The notes under the pieces: model-generated | Seen by the model: only the letters and a program-made list of their open reading frames with translations | Told to the model about the DNA's origin: nothing | Database searches by the model: none | DNA from: an uncultured Thermoguttaceae bacterium | GTDB taxonomy: Bacteria > Planctomycetota > Planctomycetia > Pirellulales > Thermoguttaceae | Direction of reading: 5' to 3' | Assembly (NCBI GenBank): GCA_938084835.1 | Contig: CALKER010000003.1 | Span: 124,001 to 188,000, forward strand | DNA length: 64,000 nucleotides | In this document: piece by piece, positions 50,908-62,299 of the stretch | Position numbering within the stretch: position 1 is the stretch's first letter | Layout of the letters: each line of letters begins with the position of its first letter | Position numbers and translations under genes: made by a program

Positions 50908-52494
50908 ATGGCAAAGCCTGCTGAGCGTGGGGAAGTATCCCCGTCCTCGATCCCTTGTGGAAGTTTTAAGGCCGTTTGGTACCCCGACTTGCTATGGCCG
51001 GTGCTTGTGGGCCTACTCCTGCGGGTGGCAATGGCCGCGGTGTGGGAAGCTTACACAGGAGGGAAATTTGCTTTTGGCGACAGCCACTCTTACTGGGTCC
51101 TCGGGCGGGCCATTGCGCTTGGAGAGGAGTATCTTTATGGTAATGCTCGGATTTTCCGCATGCCAGGATACCCGCTTTTCCTTGCACCACTTTTTTGGAT
51201 TTTTGGTGCCGACTTCCCGCCTGTTGTAGCGCGACTTTTCGGGGCGTTCTTGGGCACACTCACAATTGTGGGCGTGTACCAGTTTGGATCGTGGCTTTTC
51301 GATCGCCACGTAGGGCAGATAGCGGCATGGATCGCGGCAGCATATCCCGGTGCCGTCGTACTTAGCGTCCTTATCCTGAGCGAAGCGCTATTTTGTCCTC
51401 TGATGATCTTTGGCTTAGTCGCCATGGTGAAAGGAGCTCAGGCCAAAAATACTGGCTCTAGGGCTTGGTGGTGGTTGGGGGCCGGCGTGCTTCACGGGTG
51501 GGCAACATTGACCCGTCCCAGCTGGCTTATTTTCCCTCTATTTAGCGCTTTGGTCATCTGTATTCTCAGTAAGCAGCGGCCTCGCGACCTGGGTTATCTG
51601 CTGCTTCTAGCTATCGGAGTCCTAGCTACGCTGAGTCCCTGGTTCTGGCGAAACTGGTGCTTGACTGGCCGATTTGTCCCTACCACGCTTCAGGTTGGGG
51701 CCAGTTTGTTTGACGGCCTTCATGCCGACGCCACAGGCGCAAGCGACCTTACATTCGTTTCAAGAAGAATGGCAGAAATCGCTCAAGAATTTTCGGCCCG
51801 GAGGCCCACAAGCTCCCCTGATCGTACCCCTGCCAATTCTCTTCCCACTTCGAAGGACTCAAGGGAACTGATTAACGGCCAGGGAATCACCGACAAACCT
51901 GCGACCCTCTATGGAAATACAAACTTGGCCCACTCTGCCCCTGCGTCAATGTCAATGGCGACTGATGCTAGCATAAGGCCCGAAAATCCTAAATGGAGCA
52001 CTTACGCGGTATCGGAGGAATGGGCAAGACAGCAAAGATGGAGTATTTGCCCAAAAATAAGCGACAAAGCACGATTCGAGATCGATTTAGAGCTCTTTTT
52101 AGATCAAAGGCTACGACAAGAGGCCCTCGCGTGGGCTTGGGAAAATCCCCGGCAAGTACTCGTCCTGGCCATAAAGAAGCTTGCGCGAATGTGGAATATC
52201 TGGCCCAACGAGCCGAGCTTTCAATCTTGGCAAGTGAAAATTTTGGTCGCAGCTACATTTTTGCCGGTGATAACCCTAGCCATTTTGGGGATAATTCGTT
52301 TCCGACGAGGAGGCTGGTTATATTGGCTTCCTGCACTCCCGGCGATTTACCTTACCGGGATCCATTGCATCTTCGTAAGTTCATTACGATATCGAGAACC
52401 TGCAGTCTTGGCTTTAATTCCCCCAGCCGTCGCAGGGGGGCGCGACCTGGCCAAAATGCTCCGGAGAAGATGGCAAAAGAAGTCCCCGGAGTAG
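50908..52494 (+). CDS. Membrane glycosyltransferase, ArnT/PMT (GT39/GT87-like) type
   Basis: The 528 residues include about 9-11 hydrophobic segments. The first periplasmic loop has 'FAFGDSHSYWVLGRAIALGE' with the conserved acidic residue, and 'FRMPGYPLFLAPLFWIFG' follows, both typical of lipid-phosphate-sugar dependent transferases (PMT_2 superfamily). A polar segment of about 100 residues (near 285-390) is inserted between membrane helices. It likely transfers a sugar from a polyprenyl-phosphate donor to an envelope lipid, glycan or protein. AAGGG lies 8 nt before the ATG. Confidence 0.82.
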   Translation: MAKPAERGEVSPSSIPCGSFKAVWYPDLLWPVLVGLLLRVAMAAVWEAYTGGKFAFGDSHSYWVLGRAIALGEEYLYGNARIFRMPGYPLFLAPLFWIFGADFPPVVARLFGAFLGTLTIVGVYQFGSWLFDRHVGQIAAWIAAAYPGAVVLSVLILSEALFCPLMIFGLVAMVKGAQAKNTGSRAWWWLGAGVLHGWATLTRPSWLIFPLFSALVICILSKQRPRDLGYLLLLAIGVLATLSPWFWRNWCLTGRFVPTTLQVGASLFDGLHADATGASDLTFVSRRMAEIAQEFSARRPTSSPDRTPANSLPTSKDSRELINGQGITDKPATLYGNTNLAHSAPASMSMATDASIRPENPKWSTYAVSEEWARQQRWSICPKISDKARFEIDLELFLDQRLRQEALAWAWENPRQVLVLAIKKLARMWNIWPNEPSFQSWQVKILVAATFLPVITLAILGIIRFRRGGWLYWLPALPAIYLTGIHCIFVSSLRYREPAVLALIPPAVAGGRDLAKMLRRRWQKKSPE

Positions 52495-52958
52495 CTTCCC
52501 CAGAGGTCGGCCCGGGGGACGCACAGGGCTAAAAATCGATCTTGGGGGAGTCGCACTGTCGGCATTTTGGGCTGACACCTCAGCATGAGCAACTCGCCCT
52601 TCCGCTTGGGTCGCCTAAAATTGATTCAACGGCACCGCGGTTTGTCTTGGTGGACGCTAATAGTACGGGAAACGTTGAACCTTGCGGCACGAGGATTTTC
52701 AAGAGGCCAATTTGGCGGGAATAATTTGTTTTGCTTATTCTCGAAAATGCCGTTCTTTAAGCAGAAAATGAAACAGAAGTATGGATATACCCACCTTTGG
52801 TGTGGGTAGCGAGTTTGTAAGCAGTCGCAAATTTTGAGAAACGGCGAGGTTGGTTCGCTTTTCCCTCACAGGCCGTCGAACCGTTACGAGGATCCGATAC
52901 TTCCAGGGAAGGAGGAACGTTCTCGATCAGAAGCCTTTGGGTTTGGTTCGGGCGAATT
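52495..52958. other. Intergenic region upstream of the AsmA-like gene
   Basis: I see no gene in 464 nt apart from the probable 5' end of the next gene. A perfect AGGAGG is at 52910-52915. The first in-frame ATG/GTG/TTG after it is a TTG at 52959, 43 nt away. Confidence 0.5.
52910..52915 (+). promoter_or_regulatory. AGGAGG ribosome-binding site of the AsmA-like gene
   Basis: This perfect Shine-Dalgarno sequence has no ATG, GTG or TTG in frame within the usual 5-12 nt. The in-frame AUC at 52926 is 10 nt downstream, and the first conventional in-frame start (TTG, 52959) is 43 nt downstream. Confidence 0.55.
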
Positions 52959-55900
52959 TTGCTAATAGGCCTTTTGATCACCGCGATTGCTATCGCGGCG
53001 GGGGCGTTTCTTTTTTTCCGCCATTTTGAAGTTCTTCTCGCCAAGCAGGCCGAAATTTTGCTCGAAAAGCTCCTACCCGGCATGCAGGTCTCGATAGCAA
53101 GCGGACGGTGGTGGCCGGGGAGGGAAATAGAGCTTTGCGACATCCACGTCTCTTCGCCTGTCTCCGAGACGCCCTTGCCAGTGCCGGCACTTCTTGCTCG
53201 CGTGAGCCGAATCCGGCTCAAGGTAGCCGGCTCACTCCGCCAATGGATTCGGGACGGCTTACAAGTCGAATTGGTCATTCTTGAAGGGCTTGAATTTCGT
53301 GCCGTTCGCAACAGGGCGGGGCGATGGAATTGGGGTGCCATTTGCCAGGGCGAGCAAGGCCCTGGGAGCGTGCCAAGAATCCAGCTTGAAGCGGCAACTT
53401 TGATCGTCGAAGATCATATGGCACCCCGTTCCACGAAATTTGTGGTTCCTATTCCGCGGGCAACACTAGTGTACGAACTTCAGGAGGGTGCCCTTTCCAG
53501 AGAACAATCCGCAAGCCAATCTTCTCAGAAGCCGCTTGGTCGTTGGCGAGTCCGTGCTTTGTGTGAACCACCGGGTCTCGGTGAAGCCACGGTCGAGGCC
53601 TTCTATGCCCTGGCCACGCACCAATGGCAAATTGTGTTTCAGTTCCATCGAATCAATTTGACGAGAGAGCTCATCTCCCAGCTGCCCCTGGTTGTTCACG
53701 AGGAACTTCCGGACTTTCGTATTTTAGGTGGGGAGCTTCGGCTGAACGCGGAGGTGGGTGGCGCCGCGGAAGAGTGCCCCAACCCACAGTTTCAAGTAAC
53801 AGGGACTGTCGAAGGTGTCCGAGTGGCAATCGCACACTTGGACATGCCAATCACCGACCTGTCAGCCAAGTTTCGAATCACAAGCTCTCAGATTTCCATC
53901 GAAGGACTCCAGGCAGCCTGGGGACCGGCCACCATTTTTCTTCCGAAGCTCGAGCTGTGCCAACAGGAACCGACGGGTATCCTCCAGGGAGAAGTGGCCA
54001 TCGATAATCTGCGAATCAACCAAGAGGTGGTACAGATCCACCCACGTTTGCGGCAGTGGTACGAGACATACAACCCTCAGGGAGTGCTCAGCCTACGGGG
54101 AAATTTCCGGTTCGATGCCCACGGATGGCGGTGGAACCTCCGGATATTTCCCCAGCAAATGAATTTGGTGTATTCTCGGCTTCCCTACCCTGTTCGCGAG
54201 GTAAGTGGGCTCCTTGAGTGGACCAACGAACACCTATGGGCCCAATTATGGGGCAAGGTGGGAAATCGGCCGTTGACTATCCAAGGGCGGACGCTTCTTC
54301 GCGAAGGGGCCTGGCAATGGATCGTGGCAGCTCCCTCTGTGATGTTCGACCGGGAAATGGTGGAAGCCCTTGGGGGAGAAATGAGCCGGCGACTGGCGGA
54401 ACTGCAGCCGGCAGGGGATTTCGGCTTCCGATTTGTCAGTTTTCGCAAGGCCCACGACGCAGCTCCGGAACGGCAGCTCGAGATCGAGCTTCAAGGCACC
54501 CAGGTGCAGTACCAGCGATTCCCCTATCCCCTTCGGAATCTGCAAGGCCGCCTTCGCATGTGGGGAAACGCTCATGGGGAAGTGTGGGAGCTTGAAGAGA
54601 CCCGCGCTTATGAGAACGTCGCTGAGATTTACCTCCGCGGGCGGCTAGAAAGTTGGAGTGGGCGACACTTCCTGCAACTTCATTTCCGGGCCAAGGATCT
54701 TCCGCTCGATGAACAATTACGAGCCTCCCTTCCCACAGCGGCGGCCAGGAAACTGTGGCGCGATTTGGCGCTTCGCGGTTCCCTCGCGGAGTTAACCGGC
54801 CAAGTCCTCTACGACTCCCTTACCAACCGAATCCACCTTCGTTTCTCGGCAGAACCCGCCCCAGAGGAGTGCTCGATTCAGCCTTCGTGGTTTCCCTACC
54901 GGATTGATAATTTGGCGGGGAGGCTGGAATACCATGATGGCCAAGCGATCATTCCTCAACTGCGGGGGCAGCATGGGTCGGCGCGGATCTCGGCCACGGT
55001 GGCGTGTCTGCAAGATGCGGCAGGGACTTGGACGGTAGATCTCGCCGACTTTTTTGCGGAGCAGATTGCTCTGGATCAAGAATTGGCCCAAGCAGCACCC
55101 TTGCCCCTCCGACAGGTTTTGCGCGCGCTGAATCCCATGGGGCGGATCAACGTACGAGGTCAGATTCGCATTCAGGCAGGTTCGGACGACTCTTCCTCCG
55201 CACGCACACAATGGGCCCTTTTTGTGGACACGCACCAAGCGAGACTGGACTGCGGATTACGATTTACCGGGGTTAGCGGCACAACCCAAGTGGTAGGGGC
55301 GACCGAGGGAGACCGCTTCGCGTGTTTGACAATTTTAGATCTTACTGCCGCCAATACTCAGGGGGTGCAACTCACGCAGATCCGCGGGCCGATATGGACC
55401 GATGGCCAAAGAATACTGCTGGGACGCCCAGCGCCGGCTGAAGTACCTTCCGATCTGTGGCGGGCTCATGTACCACTTGGCGGGCACATCTCCCCTGGAC
55501 AGAGCGGTCTTACTCCACCACGAGCCCCGTCCTCTGCACCGGTGACGGCGCGCATGGCCGGAGGGCTTGTTAGTCTGGATGGTGTGATTCAATTGGGGGA
55601 GGCGTCCAGTTTTCGCCTTGGATTTTCTGTAAACCGGGCGGATTTGGGGCAATTGGCGCAGGAGCTTCTGAGGCAACCGGAGGACCTTCGCGGCTTAGTT
55701 TACGCCCAAGGCGAGGTGAGAGGCATCCTTAGTCAACCGGATACCCTCTCCGGCCAAGGTGTCCTCCAGCTACGGGAGGCAGATATCTATGATACGCCGC
55801 TCATGCTCGCCCTGCTTCGGATGGTAACCAATCGCGAGCCAAAGCGAAATGCCTTTAGCTCCGTAGACCTATCCTTTGAGTTCGAGGGTCAACGTATCGT

Positions 55901-56240
55901 CATCCCCTACGTGGTGTTTCAGGGGCCAGCCTTAAATTTCGAGGGTTCTGGGGAAGTTGATTGGCAGGGACGAATCCGGCTTCTACTGCGGGCCAATCTG
56001 GTCCGGGTCGATAGTCCGTTCCCACTCGTCCGCCAAATGGTGGGCGATGCCAGCCAACAACTCGTCCTCCTTCATGTCAGCGGCTGGTTATATGATCCCG
56101 TGGTGACCAGTGAGCCGCTCCCAGGCGTGAACCACATGCTGCGGGGTCTTCAACAAGAAATCGGGCCACAGCCATCGCCCGGTGGTCCGCCCGTGGGACC
56201 CATAAGCCGCCTGCCACGTTTCCGATCGTTGTCGCGATAG
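52959..56240 (+). CDS. AsmA-like envelope protein (AsmA/DUF3971 superfamily)
   Basis: The 1093-residue reading starts at a TTG, but the frame is open further upstream. A single N-terminal membrane helix ('LLITAIAIAAGAFLFFRHF') is followed by a very long region of repeated beta-strand-rich segments. Near residue 100 'LVILEGLEFRAVRNRAGRWNW' resembles AsmA N-terminal domains. Residues about 870-1070 ('FSVNRADLGQLAQ', 'GLVYAQGEVRG', 'LSGQGVLQLREADIYDTPLMLALLRMV', 'GSGEVDWQGRIRLLLRANL') match the AsmA-like C-terminal domain. Such proteins are predicted periplasmic bridges that move or organise outer-membrane lipids. The codon reading before the TTG (an AUC at 52926, 10 nt after AGGAGG) would give a more typical basic N-terminus. 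Confidence 0.85.
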   Translation: MLIGLLITAIAIAAGAFLFFRHFEVLLAKQAEILLEKLLPGMQVSIASGRWWPGREIELCDIHVSSPVSETPLPVPALLARVSRIRLKVAGSLRQWIRDGLQVELVILEGLEFRAVRNRAGRWNWGAICQGEQGPGSVPRIQLEAATLIVEDHMAPRSTKFVVPIPRATLVYELQEGALSREQSASQSSQKPLGRWRVRALCEPPGLGEATVEAFYALATHQWQIVFQFHRINLTRELISQLPLVVHEELPDFRILGGELRLNAEVGGAAEECPNPQFQVTGTVEGVRVAIAHLDMPITDLSAKFRITSSQISIEGLQAAWGPATIFLPKLELCQQEPTGILQGEVAIDNLRINQEVVQIHPRLRQWYETYNPQGVLSLRGNFRFDAHGWRWNLRIFPQQMNLVYSRLPYPVREVSGLLEWTNEHLWAQLWGKVGNRPLTIQGRTLLREGAWQWIVAAPSVMFDREMVEALGGEMSRRLAELQPAGDFGFRFVSFRKAHDAAPERQLEIELQGTQVQYQRFPYPLRNLQGRLRMWGNAHGEVWELEETRAYENVAEIYLRGRLESWSGRHFLQLHFRAKDLPLDEQLRASLPTAAARKLWRDLALRGSLAELTGQVLYDSLTNRIHLRFSAEPAPEECSIQPSWFPYRIDNLAGRLEYHDGQAIIPQLRGQHGSARISATVACLQDAAGTWTVDLADFFAEQIALDQELAQAAPLPLRQVLRALNPMGRINVRGQIRIQAGSDDSSSARTQWALFVDTHQARLDCGLRFTGVSGTTQVVGATEGDRFACLTILDLTAANTQGVQLTQIRGPIWTDGQRILLGRPAPAEVPSDLWRAHVPLGGHISPGQSGLTPPRAPSSAPVTARMAGGLVSLDGVIQLGEASSFRLGFSVNRADLGQLAQELLRQPEDLRGLVYAQGEVRGILSQPDTLSGQGVLQLREADIYDTPLMLALLRMVTNREPKRNAFSSVDLSFEFEGQRIVIPYVVFQGPALNFEGSGEVDWQGRIRLLLRANLVRVDSPFPLVRQMVGDASQQLVLLHVSGWLYDPVVTSEPLPGVNHMLRGLQQEIGPQPSPGGPPVGPISRLPRFRSLSR

Positions 56241-56485
56241 CAACATGTGAAAAAGGATCATTGAATAGCCAGTTTCTAAACTAAGGGACCCAAAAGTGAA
56301 CCCAATTTCTCTCGCCTTCTTCAAATAATTTGTCGTGATCACGTTCGTCATGGTCACACTGCCGGAGGATTTTAGTCCGTGGCCGTAGTCGCAAAACAGA
56401 AATACTCCCTTACTGAGACAAGCCGACGGGCCAGCCGAAGCTCATGCATCTAAGCCTACAAAAACTCGGGCCTGCCAAAACCCTT

Positions 56486-56501
56486 GGCGCCATCAGGCGC
56501 C
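56486..56501 (+). other. GC-rich stem-loop downstream of the AsmA-like gene
   Basis: GGCGCC and GGCGCC pair around an ATCA loop, 245 nt after the AsmA-like stop codon. The downstream sequence is AT-rich but lacks a T run, so terminator status is uncertain. Confidence 0.3.
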
Positions 56502-57503
56502 CCAATTTAATATTAGTAATGCAATTAATATTAATATCATTCGCCTTTTCGTTGACCTAAAGACTTAACCGACAAGGTGGGGGACGCAAGTGCCCGACAT
56601 CCGAAGGGAACGAATCGGCATCCCAAAGCGGTTTACTTTGAGCAAGTGCAGTAACTACTGGCAGAGGTGATAACCTTCACGAAAAACCTGGCCGCTCGTG
56701 TTGTGATAGCGGAGGACAAGTTAGTGGCCTAACAAAACACATCGCGAGACCAGGCGGGAATTTTTGAACGTTGCTAAAAGTAGGGACGTTTAAAATGTTT
56801 GGAACTTATCAAGGAATTAAACCTTAAGCCGGTGATCCTAAGGATGACTTGGCTCGCTCCCACGGTGGCTGACATTGGGGAAAACTCCCCGGAACCATCC
56901 AGTCACTCGTACCGCAGGCGCCGATTCATTAGCCCCGAGCCGAGCGCGAGTAGCAAGCCGGGTCCTATTAGCGAGTTACGTCCTTTTATTTTCCCGGCAC
57001 GTGAATCCCAAAGCTATAAATGCACTATAACCTACAGGTAACTGCATTATAACGAGAGATGTTTCCCATTTACCCTAAATTTGCCCGTGGCTCCTACCCC
57101 CTCCTTGTGGGATTTGTCGCCTTTGGGTTTAACGTTTGTCAGGAGTTGCGGGTCCAGCGGATACACCCGAAACGCCGGGTGGTCTCGAGCTCAACCTTAG
57201 GTCGTAGACGTTACTTTTCCCGCCAAGTCGACGAAACGAGCCTGGGTTTCCGAATCTGGCCCTATGACACTTGCGAGGCTTTGATACCCAAAGTAGATTG
57301 ACACTTGACCGACCTGCGATACGGTCAAGCGTAAAGTTTGGGTGTTCGTTAAGGTTGACTCAGGATATCTGTAGAGACGTTTATGACGAACCGCCGGTCG
57401 GTCCGAATATACCGAATAGGCGAAGACAGCCTTCGGTTCAATCGGAAGACCTTCGATCGGGACAGGTTTCACTGGGTCAGTGACGAAAGTGTTGCAAGCA
57501 GAA

Positions 57504-57509
57504 AGGAGG
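57504..57509 (+). promoter_or_regulatory. AGGAGG ribosome-binding site of infC
   Basis: The perfect AGGAGG is followed after 6 nt by the in-frame codon AUC at 57516. Upstream in-frame starts (GTG at 57480 and 57489, TTG at 57492) lie before this site and cannot use it. Confidence 0.8.
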
Positions 57510-57515
57510 ACGACT

Positions 57516-58187
57516 ATCGAGGTCAAATCGTATCGCGTCAACGAACAAATTCGGCGCTCGCCGGTGCGCGTCATCGGAGTAGAAGGGAAAAACTTGGGGA
57601 TCATGCCACTGCAACAGGCCCTGGCTCTTGCCCGCGAAGCCGAGCTTGATCTCGTTGAGGTGGGGCCAAACGAAACCCCACCTGTGTGCCGGATTTTAGA
57701 TTATGGAAAATTCAAGTACGAACTTCAGAAAAAGCAGCGGGCGCAGGCTCATCACACAAAAGTTAAAGAAATTCACCTCCGGCCAGGGACGGGAAAGCAC
57801 GACTTGGAGGTCAAAATCAACCGCGCTAAAGAGTTCCTCGAAGACCGGAATAAAGTCCTCGTTGTAGTCGAATTTAAAGGGCGCGAAGCCGCTCACGTCG
57901 AGGAAGGGATGCGCGTCATTCAGACGGTAATCGGCTCTTTGGCGGAGCTTGCCAAAGTGGAAAATCCACCGCGAAGTGAAGGCCGGCAGCGGATCGTTTG
58001 TCTCCTCGGACCGCGTGTTGAGGACAAACGCCCAAAAGAAAAGGAGAGGACTCCCGAAAAAGTCCCTCCAGCGGGCATTTCCCGCCAGAGTGTGCAGCTG
58101 GGGACCACGCCGAAGGAGCCTGCTGCGTCGGTTCGCTCCGGCGGCGTTGACGAGCCACACACTGCTACCTTGCAACCTCCCGCGTAA
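57516..58187 (+). CDS. infC: Translation initiation factor IF-3, apparent AUC start
   Basis: IF-3 binds the 30S subunit, keeps it free of 50S and rejects wrong start codons or initiator tRNA. The N-domain holds 'YRVNEQIRRSPVRVIG', 'NLGIMPLQQALALAREAELDLVEVGPNETPPVCRILDYGKFKYE' (the IF-3 signature), and the C-domain holds 'VKEIHLRPGTGKHDLEVKINRAKEFLEDRNKVLVVVEFKGRE'. A Pro/Glu-rich tail of about 50 residues follows the usual end. I start at AUC (57516), because AGGAGG lies 6 nt upstream and homology begins just after. Non-AUG starts (AUU, AUC) are established in infC of several bacteria and allow IF-3 to repress its own translation. rpmI and rplT, often next to infC, are not in the window. Confidence 0.95.
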   Translation: MEVKSYRVNEQIRRSPVRVIGVEGKNLGIMPLQQALALAREAELDLVEVGPNETPPVCRILDYGKFKYELQKKQRAQAHHTKVKEIHLRPGTGKHDLEVKINRAKEFLEDRNKVLVVVEFKGREAAHVEEGMRVIQTVIGSLAELAKVENPPRSEGRQRIVCLLGPRVEDKRPKEKERTPEKVPPAGISRQSVQLGTTPKEPAASVRSGGVDEPHTATLQPPA

Positions 58188-59340
58188 ACGGTTTCACGCA
58201 AGTCGAGGGGAAGGGCCAAAACAAGGCTTCGAGCCGGCACGAAAGAAAAATTCTTGTTGCCCGAAATCGGCCTCGACTTGTGAAAAGCCCACTGCAATCG
58301 ATCTCGTTGGGCTTGTCGGGATCCGTTCTCGGCGATTGCGTAGCTTCGAGTGGGGCCCGCTTCGCCAAAGCACACTGAATCTTCATCCCCAAACCAACCC
58401 GAATCCATATTGCCGAAGTCAGCCTCACTTGGAGCCACATCGCTCCAAAGGCGGCCCTTGTGTCACCTTTTGGTTCCGGGGAGCCCAGTGTTTGCGCTCC
58501 GTTCTCAAAACAACGTAGGAGAAGCGTCACACTAAAAATGTGAGGCTCCAAGCAAAACGCTCCTTGAGAGGATGGAACAAAACTGGGGGATCCACTCACC
58601 TGCCTCTTTCAAGGGAAGCTCGGGCTGCCGAACCTCCACACGTGCATAGTTTCCTAAACACGTGGTTGCGGGATTTGTTTCACACGCTTTGGCGGGCGAC
58701 TCTCTTCAACTGCCTCCCTTTTGAGACAATGCTCTCCCGAGCCAACGGAAATCCACGCAGTTAAGCCTCGGAAAGGCGGTCCGAGAGCCCTCGGTGGTCC
58801 ATTGTCACGAGCTTATCAGTTCCCTTTTCGCAGTCATCGGAGCACACAAAATTTTTGACAAGCATCGCATAAGCGAAGCAGAACGGCTTGTCCTCAATTT
58901 GCAAGATGGAAAATTCGACAGTAGGCACGATGCCCCTACCAAAATCGCAAGTGAATATGGTTGAAATGTGCTCTTGACGTTCGTCCGCGCGTAAACACGT
59001 GGAGAAAAATTTTTCCGCTGCGAGCGTATCCGGAAAACCATTCTTAGGAAGAGGAGAATCCCACGGATGCGGCGACCCTCCACATGAAAAACGTCGTGTA
59101 ATTCCCCACTTTAGCCCCAGATTTCTCACGAAGCCTGACTGCCTAAAATGTTGCCCCGATCCTTCTTCGTGTTAACAGACAGAGTGACACGTCGATCACC
59201 ATCGAAGCCCACGAGCCACTATTATTTAATCCGTTAAGGTTGAAAAGCTGCCCAGGAGGTTTCGACCACTCGTAAGTTTCAGGTGACCGATTTTGGCCGT
59301 GGCTTTCAAGCAGAAACTTAGCTTGACCCGCCACATCAAC
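58188..59340. other. Non-coding stretch downstream of infC
   Basis: I see no gene in about 1.15 kb. The usual infC neighbours rpmI and rplT are absent. Minus-strand open frames at 57920-58599 are shadows of infC or lack protein character. Confidence 0.5.
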
Positions 59341-60750
59341 TTACCTAGTAACCACAAATTTTACGTTGCGGGTGAACGGGTCGGCGTGATATGAAGCTAC
59401 ATCGGCCGGATCGTCGATCAACTGCCCTCCGATACGGAGGTTCTCAAACGTGATATTCCGCGTGAGGTGGCGTTCGGAATGCCCACTTAGCTCAATTGCC
59501 GCGCGGCCTCTTGCCACCGTAATATTGCGAAATATTATGTCCTCAATGTGTCCCCATTGCGGCTGAGTGGAGTGTTTGTTTTTGAACAACCCCACTCGCA
59601 CCACGCGCTCCGCCTCCTCCACGTAGATATTTTCGAAAACCACGTCGCGCACCCGACAAGCATCCACATTCCACACGCCAAGCGCCGCATCGCGGTTGCC
59701 AGCGCTATTCGGGTTTATGCCGGAGAAAATAATATCGGAGTCACGAAATACGATATTCTCAGTCGTTTCGACCGCAAGCTCCCCGCCCACCACAAAACTC
59801 CGCATCCAGTTTTGCCACATGACGCAATTGGAGACGGTGATGTTCCTCAGGCGTTTGCCCAGCTCGATTTTACCTTTGACCGAAATACCGTCATCGTGGT
59901 TCTTGATGAAACAATTCCGGATGATAACATCCTCCGAGCTGACTGGATTGATGCCGTCGGAATTCATCCGCCAGCTAATTATCTTTACGTTGTCCACACA
60001 AACGGATTGGCAGCCGGCAATAAATATGTTCCAGGCAAAGGCATCTAATAGGATAATCCCCTCGATGTGGAGATCTCGGCAATTTCGCAGCGTGACAAAC
60101 CTTTCCCCAGGGGGAACATCCTGCTTTCGGTATTCGCCGCCATAAAGGATGCCCCGTCCTAAGATTCTCACATTTGTTGCCTTTGTGGACCTCACACGCC
60201 CTTTGACGAAAGCGCCCCCAGCCAAATACAGCGTCTGATCACTTTGTAGTTCAATCACTCCCACTGAATGCACCCCGGGACCAAAAAAGAGGACCCCGGG
60301 AGTACCCGGAAGTGGACGGCTGGCTTCCAACGGATTGGCAAACACAAAAAGCGGCTCATCACAGCTGTCATTGAATAAAACGACATAATTGCCAGGCGCC
60401 GTGAGGACAAACCTCACAGTGCGGCCTTGCACATCGGCTTTAACCCCTCGCCTGAGGGGATGGACACGAGCGCTTGACACCTTGGAGGCGGCGGTAATTT
60501 CCACCGTCACCTGACCCTCAAAGTCGAAATAAACCATTGCTGCAGGAGCGGCGACGTCGCGGTAAAGCCCCGTGGGATTGATTGTGACGGGATACACAAA
60601 CAAAGGGGAATTATTCACGCTAACTTGATATAACTGGGATGGTCGCATCCCAGGTGGGCCAGGATAAAGTACGGTCCTTGCCGCACGTACCGAAGAAGTT
60701 TCTCCGGCCCAAAAGGCAACGCATACAGGCAAGATGAGCAATAATCTCAC
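59341..60750 (-). CDS. Secreted right-handed beta-helix protein, GH28-like
   Basis: The 469 residues begin at a GTG (GGGGG about 9 nt upstream) with a signal peptide ('LLLILPVCVAFWAGETSSVRA'). Residues about 30-150 form an N-terminal beta-rich part. The parallel beta helix holds 'DNVKIISWRMNSDGINPVSSEDVIIRNCFIKNHDDGISVKG', which keeps the N-(T/S)-D and D-D aspartates of polygalacturonases. The G-H-G motif of classical GH28 enzymes is not visible ('SFVVGGELAVE' at that place), so the exact family may be GH28-like or dextranase/GH49-like. It probably cleaves a uronic-acid or glucan polymer outside the cell. Confidence 0.82.
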   Translation of the reverse strand: MRLLLILPVCVAFWAGETSSVRAARTVLYPGPPGMRPSQLYQVSVNNSPLFVYPVTINPTGLYRDVAAPAAMVYFDFEGQVTVEITAASKVSSARVHPLRRGVKADVQGRTVRFVLTAPGNYVVLFNDSCDEPLFVFANPLEASRPLPGTPGVLFFGPGVHSVGVIELQSDQTLYLAGGAFVKGRVRSTKATNVRILGRGILYGGEYRKQDVPPGERFVTLRNCRDLHIEGIILLDAFAWNIFIAGCQSVCVDNVKIISWRMNSDGINPVSSEDVIIRNCFIKNHDDGISVKGKIELGKRLRNITVSNCVMWQNWMRSFVVGGELAVETTENIVFRDSDIIFSGINPNSAGNRDAALGVWNVDACRVRDVVFENIYVEEAERVVRVGLFKNKHSTQPQWGHIEDIIFRNITVARGRAAIELSGHSERHLTRNITFENLRIGGQLIDDPADVASYHADPFTRNVKFVVTR

Positions 60751-61147
60751 GGCAACATACCCCCGTTAAAAATTTTTCCTAATAACCGATGGGATCAGTG
60801 GAACTATTTGTCCTGCCAATTACGAAGGTGTCGATGGTTGACCACGTCTTCTGACTTAAAGGTTCACAGGTAAACAACGTAAACTGCTGGTGATCTTTGG
60901 GATCGAGGGCAATTATAGACGGCCTACGTGTTAAAGGAAGAAACCTGCCATGCCCAGCTGCCCGCTTACAGGCGTGACTGATGTGAATTAATAATCGCCC
61001 CCCTCTCTTCCAGATTAGCCGACAAATCACACCAAAGGCACGCCCAAAGCTCGGCAGCTTCTGGCCGACAGTGGCTATCAAAACATGTTGGGAGAGAGGG
61101 CTGCAAGTCAAGATGAAGAATACGTGCTTCCGAAAAGCTGGTCTTTC
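60751..61147. other. Intergenic region
   Basis: I see no gene in 397 nt between the WYL regulator gene and the GH28-like gene, both on the minus strand. It should carry the GH28-like gene promoter. Confidence 0.45.
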
Positions 61148-62299
61148 TCAAGCATCCTTCAACCAAGCTCGACGAAATTTAGGAGACCTGTCGCCGCCTG
61201 AGTCCCACGGTTCGGTGCGGGGATTTACCCCGGGCACACCTTTTGTCCGCTGGTGATCCGAAACCTCCATGATAGCCTTACCGAACGACTTCCGCGAGTA
61301 TATAGCGTTAAGAGCAGAAGCCTCTTCGGCCAGCTCCTGGCGTAGTTCCTCCGGCTCTAAGACCTCTGCCAACCTGCCGAAGGATAAAATCCAGTGTTTA
61401 ATCTCTTTGGTGGTATTTAATCGGAATTCTGCTATTATGCTGCCACCGGCCTGCAGCAGGAGGCGTTGACTATCGTGCCAACGCTTTTCTTGGACATATC
61501 GGCTAACTTCAGGCGCGAATCGTACACGAACAAGGATATTCCCACTCTCACGGAAGATTCCGAAAGAGCCCGCCAAATGGGCCCTTAGATCAAAATCCGC
61601 GGGTCTGCAGAACCCATCCCGGGAGATCTCCACCTGTTCCATTCGGTCCACCTTCCAGTGCCGAATCTCGTGATGCTTGGTGCTAAAGCCTACCAAATAA
61701 AGTGAGCCGCGATGGAACACTATCCCATATGGGTGGACCCGGTAAGTCTCGGGTTGCTTAGCTCGAAGTGAGGTATAAACGATGTCGACAGCCCGCTGGT
61801 CCTCGATTGCGATCATCAACAAATCGATGAGTTGTGATTTGCCCGTGTAGTCGCTGACTCCTATACTCGTGGGGTAGAAGAAGTGTGCGAATTTCTCCAC
61901 ATACTTGAGGGCCTCGCTGCTTAACATGGCGCGAATTTTCCGAAAAGCCCGTTGGGCGGCTTCCCAAAAAGGCGATCCCGCAATCGGATCCAGAAGACGA
62001 CGCGAAAGATAAAGTGCCAGTGCCTCATCGAACGCGAATCCAAGCCACGACTCCGCCGGAGGCTGATTGAGCACCCACTTTTTCCGCCCATGGGCCTGAC
62101 GAATCTCCTGGAGAGGGAACCCCAATTGCTTGAAAAGGGCAAGATCCCGGCGGACAGTCTTCACACTGGTCTCGAGCTCGCGGGCTATCTCTTGCACAGT
62201 CGCACCCGTCCACCGAGCACTAAGCAATCGCAGCAGAATCCACTGCCGAAGCAAGGGAGCCTGCGACTTGTCGCTGAGGTCTGTTCGGTGTCGTGGCAT
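61148..62299 (-). CDS. WYL-domain transcriptional regulator
   Basis: The 383 residues start at the ATG at 62299. Residues about 10-65 form a winged helix-turn-helix ('QWILLRLLSARWTGATVQEIARELETSVKTVRRDLALFKQLGFPL'), of the HTH_11/DeoR-like type. The WYL domain lies near 145-225 ('RAVDIVYTSLRAKQPETYRVHPYGIVFHRGSLYLVGFSTKHHEIRHWKVDRMEQVEIS'); the motif that gives the family its name reads S-L-Y-L here. A WCX extension follows. WYL domains bind nucleotides or oligonucleotides and regulate diverse genes. It lies upstream of the GH28-like gene on the same strand, with 397 nt between; whether it controls that gene is unknown. Confidence 0.88.
   Translation of the reverse strand: MPRHRTDLSDKSQAPLLRQWILLRLLSARWTGATVQEIARELETSVKTVRRDLALFKQLGFPLQEIRQAHGRKKWVLNQPPAESWLGFAFDEALALYLSRRLLDPIAGSPFWEAAQRAFRKIRAMLSSEALKYVEKFAHFFYPTSIGVSDYTGKSQLIDLLMIAIEDQRAVDIVYTSLRAKQPETYRVHPYGIVFHRGSLYLVGFSTKHHEIRHWKVDRMEQVEISRDGFCRPADFDLRAHLAGSFGIFRESGNILVRVRFAPEVSRYVQEKRWHDSQRLLLQAGGSIIAEFRLNTTKEIKHWILSFGRLAEVLEPEELRQELAEEASALNAIYSRKSFGKAIMEVSDHQRTKGVPGVNPRTEPWDSGGDRSPKFRRAWLKDA

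Follow-up and report, generated by a model that had tools for sequence, protein, structure and literature searches.

The infC gene of the uncultured Thermoguttaceae bacterium studied here, located in a stretch of 64,000 nucleotides (the window), almost certainly starts at an AUC codon (position 57516), as judged from sequence comparison. The explanation that best accounts for the whole of the observations, and that we consider highly probable, is that this start is directed by the Shine-Dalgarno (SD) sequence at 57504-57509 and is subject to a putative feedback by the gene product, IF-3.

A non-AUG start of infC is already known as a kind, as the preliminary description of this DNA had pointed out. 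The genes of Escherichia coli and Bacillus subtilis start with AUU (PMC1805508), those of Streptomyces with AUC, misannotated in most species (PMC5472188), and that of Staphylococcus aureus with AUA, which was mapped by retapamulin profiling (Ribo-Ret; PMC13009471). The E. coli gene is autoregulated (PMC1805508, PMC5472188; see also Butler et al., as cited in PMC1780047).

The infC locus and its product

The features of the locus are collected in Table 1. The product of the gene is beyond doubt IF-3 by its sequence: it matches the IF-3 equivalog model TIGR00168 over the full length (179.8 bits versus a cut-off of 60; 3.8e-53), as well as both IF-3 domains (PF05198 and PF00707) and IF-3 chains of the PDB. 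The arrangement originally reported for the start, i.e. AGGAGG, a 6-nt spacer (ACGACT) and an ATC in frame with IF-3, is exact in sequence and coordinates, and IF-3 homology indeed begins right after the AUC, at residue 4 (TIGR00168) or residue 8 (Pfam IF3_N) when residues are counted from this codon. The 16S rRNA of this genome ends in GGATCACCTCCTTT, so that the anti-SD sequence is present; the genome matches the 3' end of 16S rRNA in two places, both with CACCTCCTTT.

Table 1. Features of the infC locus (positions in the window)
Feature	Position	Strand	Basis or remark
Shine-Dalgarno sequence AGGAGG	57504-57509	+	Within AAAGGAGG (57502-57509); anti-SD in own 16S; site almost all purine in the AUC/AUA-start infC genes of the order
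ACT triplet adjoining the start codon on its 5' side	57513-57515	+	Matches the conserved RCN context
Proposed AUC start codon of infC	57516-57518	+	Comparative evidence
infC (IF-3), 223 codons and TAA	57516-58187	+	TIGR00168, PF05198, PF00707, PDB IF-3 chains
C-terminal tail of IF-3, ~56 residues beyond the fold	58017-58184	+	Alignment; sequence not conserved
Rejected start GTG (12 additional residues)	57480-57482	+	No counterpart in G002
Rejected starts GTG 57489 and TTG 57492, both 5' of the SD	57489-57494	+	Sequence; comparison with G002

The motif AGGAGG-N4-9-ATC occurs four times in the window versus 3.25 occurrences expected from shuffled sequences, i.e. without excess; since the motif by itself is not beyond chance, the case for AUC rests on its position at the onset of IF-3 homology and on its conservation. 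No known leader RNA was matched in an Rfam scan of positions 52000-62000, and the predicted folding of 57470-57580 was not more stable than that of shuffles (z +1.66), which gives no indication of a regulatory hairpin. On either side of the gene lies a segment of more than 1 kb (56241-57515 and 58188-59340) in which neither a convincing ORF nor an Rfam match was seen. The 1.5 kb downstream of infC yielded no recognisable L35 gene, while one is found near infC in some relatives (L014, L025 and L030).

The C-terminal tail is also present in a genome of the same genus (G002), with an unlike sequence, and is missing from the other longer loci compared. IF-3 of Myxococcus likewise has a C-terminal tail, of 66 residues, which is needed for development (PMC2129111). 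Four residues of E. coli IF-3 (Y75, R99, K110 and R131) are tied to codon discrimination. In an alignment using this numbering, the first three letters are the same in the window protein, while RFRGRE reads EFKGRE, with K in place of R131.

Comparison within the genus

A start at GTG 57480, or at GTG 57489 or TTG 57492, would make the protein 8-12 residues longer and turn the ATC into an internal isoleucine codon. These conventional codons lie 5' of the SD in the infC frame, which remains open as far upstream as a TAG at 57417, and a start at 57480 would add 36 nt, the 12 residues given in the preliminary description. Furthermore, an ATG 5' of the ancestral site serves as the start in some members of the same family, several other relatives have derived ATGs at different places, and in another genus (G024/L020) an ATG stands 19 codons ahead of the domain, which is the place of 57480 by count. 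However, the last has no sequence in common with the window there and lacks the SD-ATC arrangement, none of the GTG/TTG candidates is preceded by a strong SD (the best one would be wasted within the gene), and in many relatives the upstream stretch contains in-frame stops.

Closer comparison came from G002, whose IF-3 is 80% identical. This genome carries AGGAGGAAGGCTATC, i.e. the SD, the spacer and the ATC are all kept. Its frame is closed upstream by a TGA, and neither ATG nor GTG nor TTG occurs from there to the IF-3 domain. Bases -60 to -13 are only 15% identical between G002 and the window (below chance), versus 80% over the initial 90 bases of the ORF. Because G002 has no such upstream codon and the DNA before the SD is not conserved while the ORF is, initiation at GTG 57480 or its neighbours is very unlikely. 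ATC occupies the site in another genome of the genus (G001) too, but the SD there is weaker and GA-rich. Within the genus we thus found no homologue whose start aligns with 57480, an observation that would have spoken against AUC.

infC starts in the order Pirellulales

The survey comprised the infC leaders of 134 genomes (20 families, 89 genera) of the order Pirellulales, to which the window belongs. Starts were called by SD energy across eight candidate codons, or by homology where ATH-GA sits 5-9 codons before the domain. By these calls, which are ambiguous in some genomes, the start codon is AUC in 92 genomes, AUA in 4, ATG in 18, TTG in 9 and GTG in 8, with three single calls. AUC and AUA together (96/134 genomes) occur in 61 of the 89 genera, and the SD is conserved with them, which strongly supports the AUC start originally proposed. 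The median SD energy at these starts is -7.8 kcal/mol, versus -2.9 for the S12 gene and -5.8 for the IF1 gene, and positions -13 to -10 are nearly all purine in the 96 genes. A conventional NTG start was called by the same rule in 36 of the 134 genomes, so a canonical start of infC is tolerated.

AUU provided no convincing case among the 134 genomes, versus 270 of 781 internal isoleucine codons (35%); the depletion (Fisher 1.5e-16) is indicative only, related genomes not being independent. The one AUU call (L026) is more plausibly the ATG that its relatives share.

Since the calling rule admits non-standard codons by design, a stricter test was applied. In 44 of the 134 genomes, infC offers no ATG, GTG or TTG from the preceding stop codon up to the IF-3 domain; among 60 S12 and IF1 genes taken from the order as controls, not one lacked such a codon. 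Seven of the genomes with an AUC start carry an in-frame stop 1-3 codons upstream of the triplet adjoining that start (e.g. TGA GCC ATC). The idea that the protein instead begins 3' of the AUC, at a conventional codon inside the IF-3 domain, may draw on six of the 44 genomes, in which the first domain residue is itself encoded by GTG or ATG. The other 38 have no such codon there either: a start at the next NTG, 6-53 codons inside the domain, would remove conserved residues, and the SD would be far beyond its usual spacing, making a downstream start a negligible prospect.

Sequence context of the AUC and AUA starts

In the order, the triplet before AUC or AUA has the form RCN, with a purine at -3 in 95% of cases, C at -2 in 91% and any base at -1, and G occupies +4 in 92%. 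C at -2 is found in 40 of the 44 genomes of the strict test, in 47 of the 52 others and in 16 of 18 families; elsewhere it is infrequent (3/36 NTG-start infC genes, 16/60 S12 and IF1 genes, 5/22 long ORFs of the window). It is also strong in f21 and f22, but not in f23 (35%), and is weaker in other classes.

Two other origins of the triplet were considered and rejected. It does not represent an Ala or Thr codon belonging to a longer reading frame, as C at -2 is equally common where no upstream NTG exists and several genomes have RCN directly after a stop. Avoidance of adjacent start codons would explain the absence of U at -2, but not that of A and G. The RCN triplet before non-AUG infC starts is explained neither by coding, nor by the SD, nor by general start context.

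Other start codons in place of AUC

In a group within f1, the family of the window (L017, L019, L021, L023, L145, L149 and others), the gene begins with an ATG followed by GGN-AAR-TGG-AGG or a near variant (MGKWR...); this upstream ATG is derived, and the TGGAGG-like stretch of the former SD seems now to lie in the coding sequence.

Five of the six genomes of family f65 (L205, L220, L464, L465 and L466) have GGAGG, six or seven bases and ACG GCN where other families show AUC; RCN usually precedes the ACG, and several of these genomes have no ATG, GTG or TTG back to the stop. The sixth f65 genome differs, while one genome of f45 (L211) resembles this arrangement. Automatic ACG calls in other families are weaker, as in L207, L195 and L194, an adjacent ATT, ATC or GTG fitting equally well.

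Switches between AUH and the remaining start types number at least 22 when placed on an IF-3 tree covering 205 genomes of the class; this is a quick tree built from a single short protein, in which gain and loss of a start type are indistinguishable.

Start codons in the phylum and beyond

In other orders of the class (n=71) the starts are mainly AUC (46) and AUU (14), and in other classes of the phylum (n=68) AUU (22), AUC (16), ACG (10) and AUA (6). Strict cases lacking any NTG occur in all three sets (44 in the order, 24 in other orders of the class and 32 in other classes). An AUC, AUU or AUA start was indicated by SD position in 52 of 60 named genomes from other phyla. Judging from these sequences, such infC starts extend across Planctomycetota and into other phyla. 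According to the preliminary description, AUC has also been reported as the infC start of Myxococcus (dsg in M. xanthus).

IF-3 genes on large IMG/VR contigs (L061-L080), viral according to IMG/VR, mostly start with ATG, unlike cellular infC, and none showed a clear SD-placed AUC, AUU or AUA. Such a difference would be in keeping with a regulatory cause that concerns the cellular gene.

Discussion

By analogy with E. coli, AUC would pair poorly with the initiator tRNA, and 30S complexes formed on it would be rejected by IF-3, which would limit its own synthesis. AUC is among the codons that IF-3 discriminates against in E. coli. The codon would be used when IF-3 is low and repressed when it is high, with the basal rate set by the strong SD together with the RCN-AUC-G context, which is conserved. 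By this analogy infC is probably autoregulated through its AUC: feedback is the likeliest reason for the codon, since IF-3 discriminates against AUC in E. coli and such codons recur in infC. The AUC might instead be only a weak start that reduces the level of IF-3 without responding to it, as a weak start can by itself set a low level. We regard this as rather unlikely, considering that E. coli IF-3 represses its own AUU-start gene, that a non-canonical GTC start was repressed in Streptomyces (PMC5472188), and that AUC, AUU, AUA and ACG recur in infC, but not in the S12 or IF1 genes.

Compared with known systems, the window gene shares an AUH start with infC of E. coli and B. subtilis, with AUC in place of AUU, and differs from them in the lack of a recognised L35 gene directly downstream and in its RCN context. 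Streptomyces, of a different phylum, has the same AUC codon, although the actinobacterial records seen typically have CCC or CAC before it, in contrast to the RCN of Pirellulales. The AUA of S. aureus, also an AUH start, is used by a small minority of the order's genomes (4/134). The C-terminal tail is a feature in common with IF-3 of M. xanthus. The window protein and that of G002 have dissimilar tails.

A literature search, with little subscription content, found no paper on planctomycete infC starts, and no earlier description of the RCN triplet before the infC AUC, of the derived-ATG clade of f1 or of ACG replacing AUC in the infC of one planctomycete family was found.

An annotation program limited to ATG, GTG and TTG cannot place the AUC start of infC correctly; applied to the 44 strict genomes of the 134, it would necessarily truncate IF-3, an essential fidelity factor, by 6 to 59 residues (median 17). 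We tentatively suggest, while considering it somewhat doubtful, that the RCN triplet, which during initiation would occupy the E site of the 30S subunit, is functional and tunes IF-3-controlled initiation at AUC and AUA, and that ACG can replace AUC within this context in one planctomycete family; that the effect is exerted in the E site is a guess. The RCN context is a concrete candidate for what non-AUG initiation needs beyond an SD. Moreover, since the order contains both AUC-start lineages and lineages with derived ATG, GTG or TTG starts, the question of whether IF-3 feedback is lost together with the codon becomes testable by comparison.
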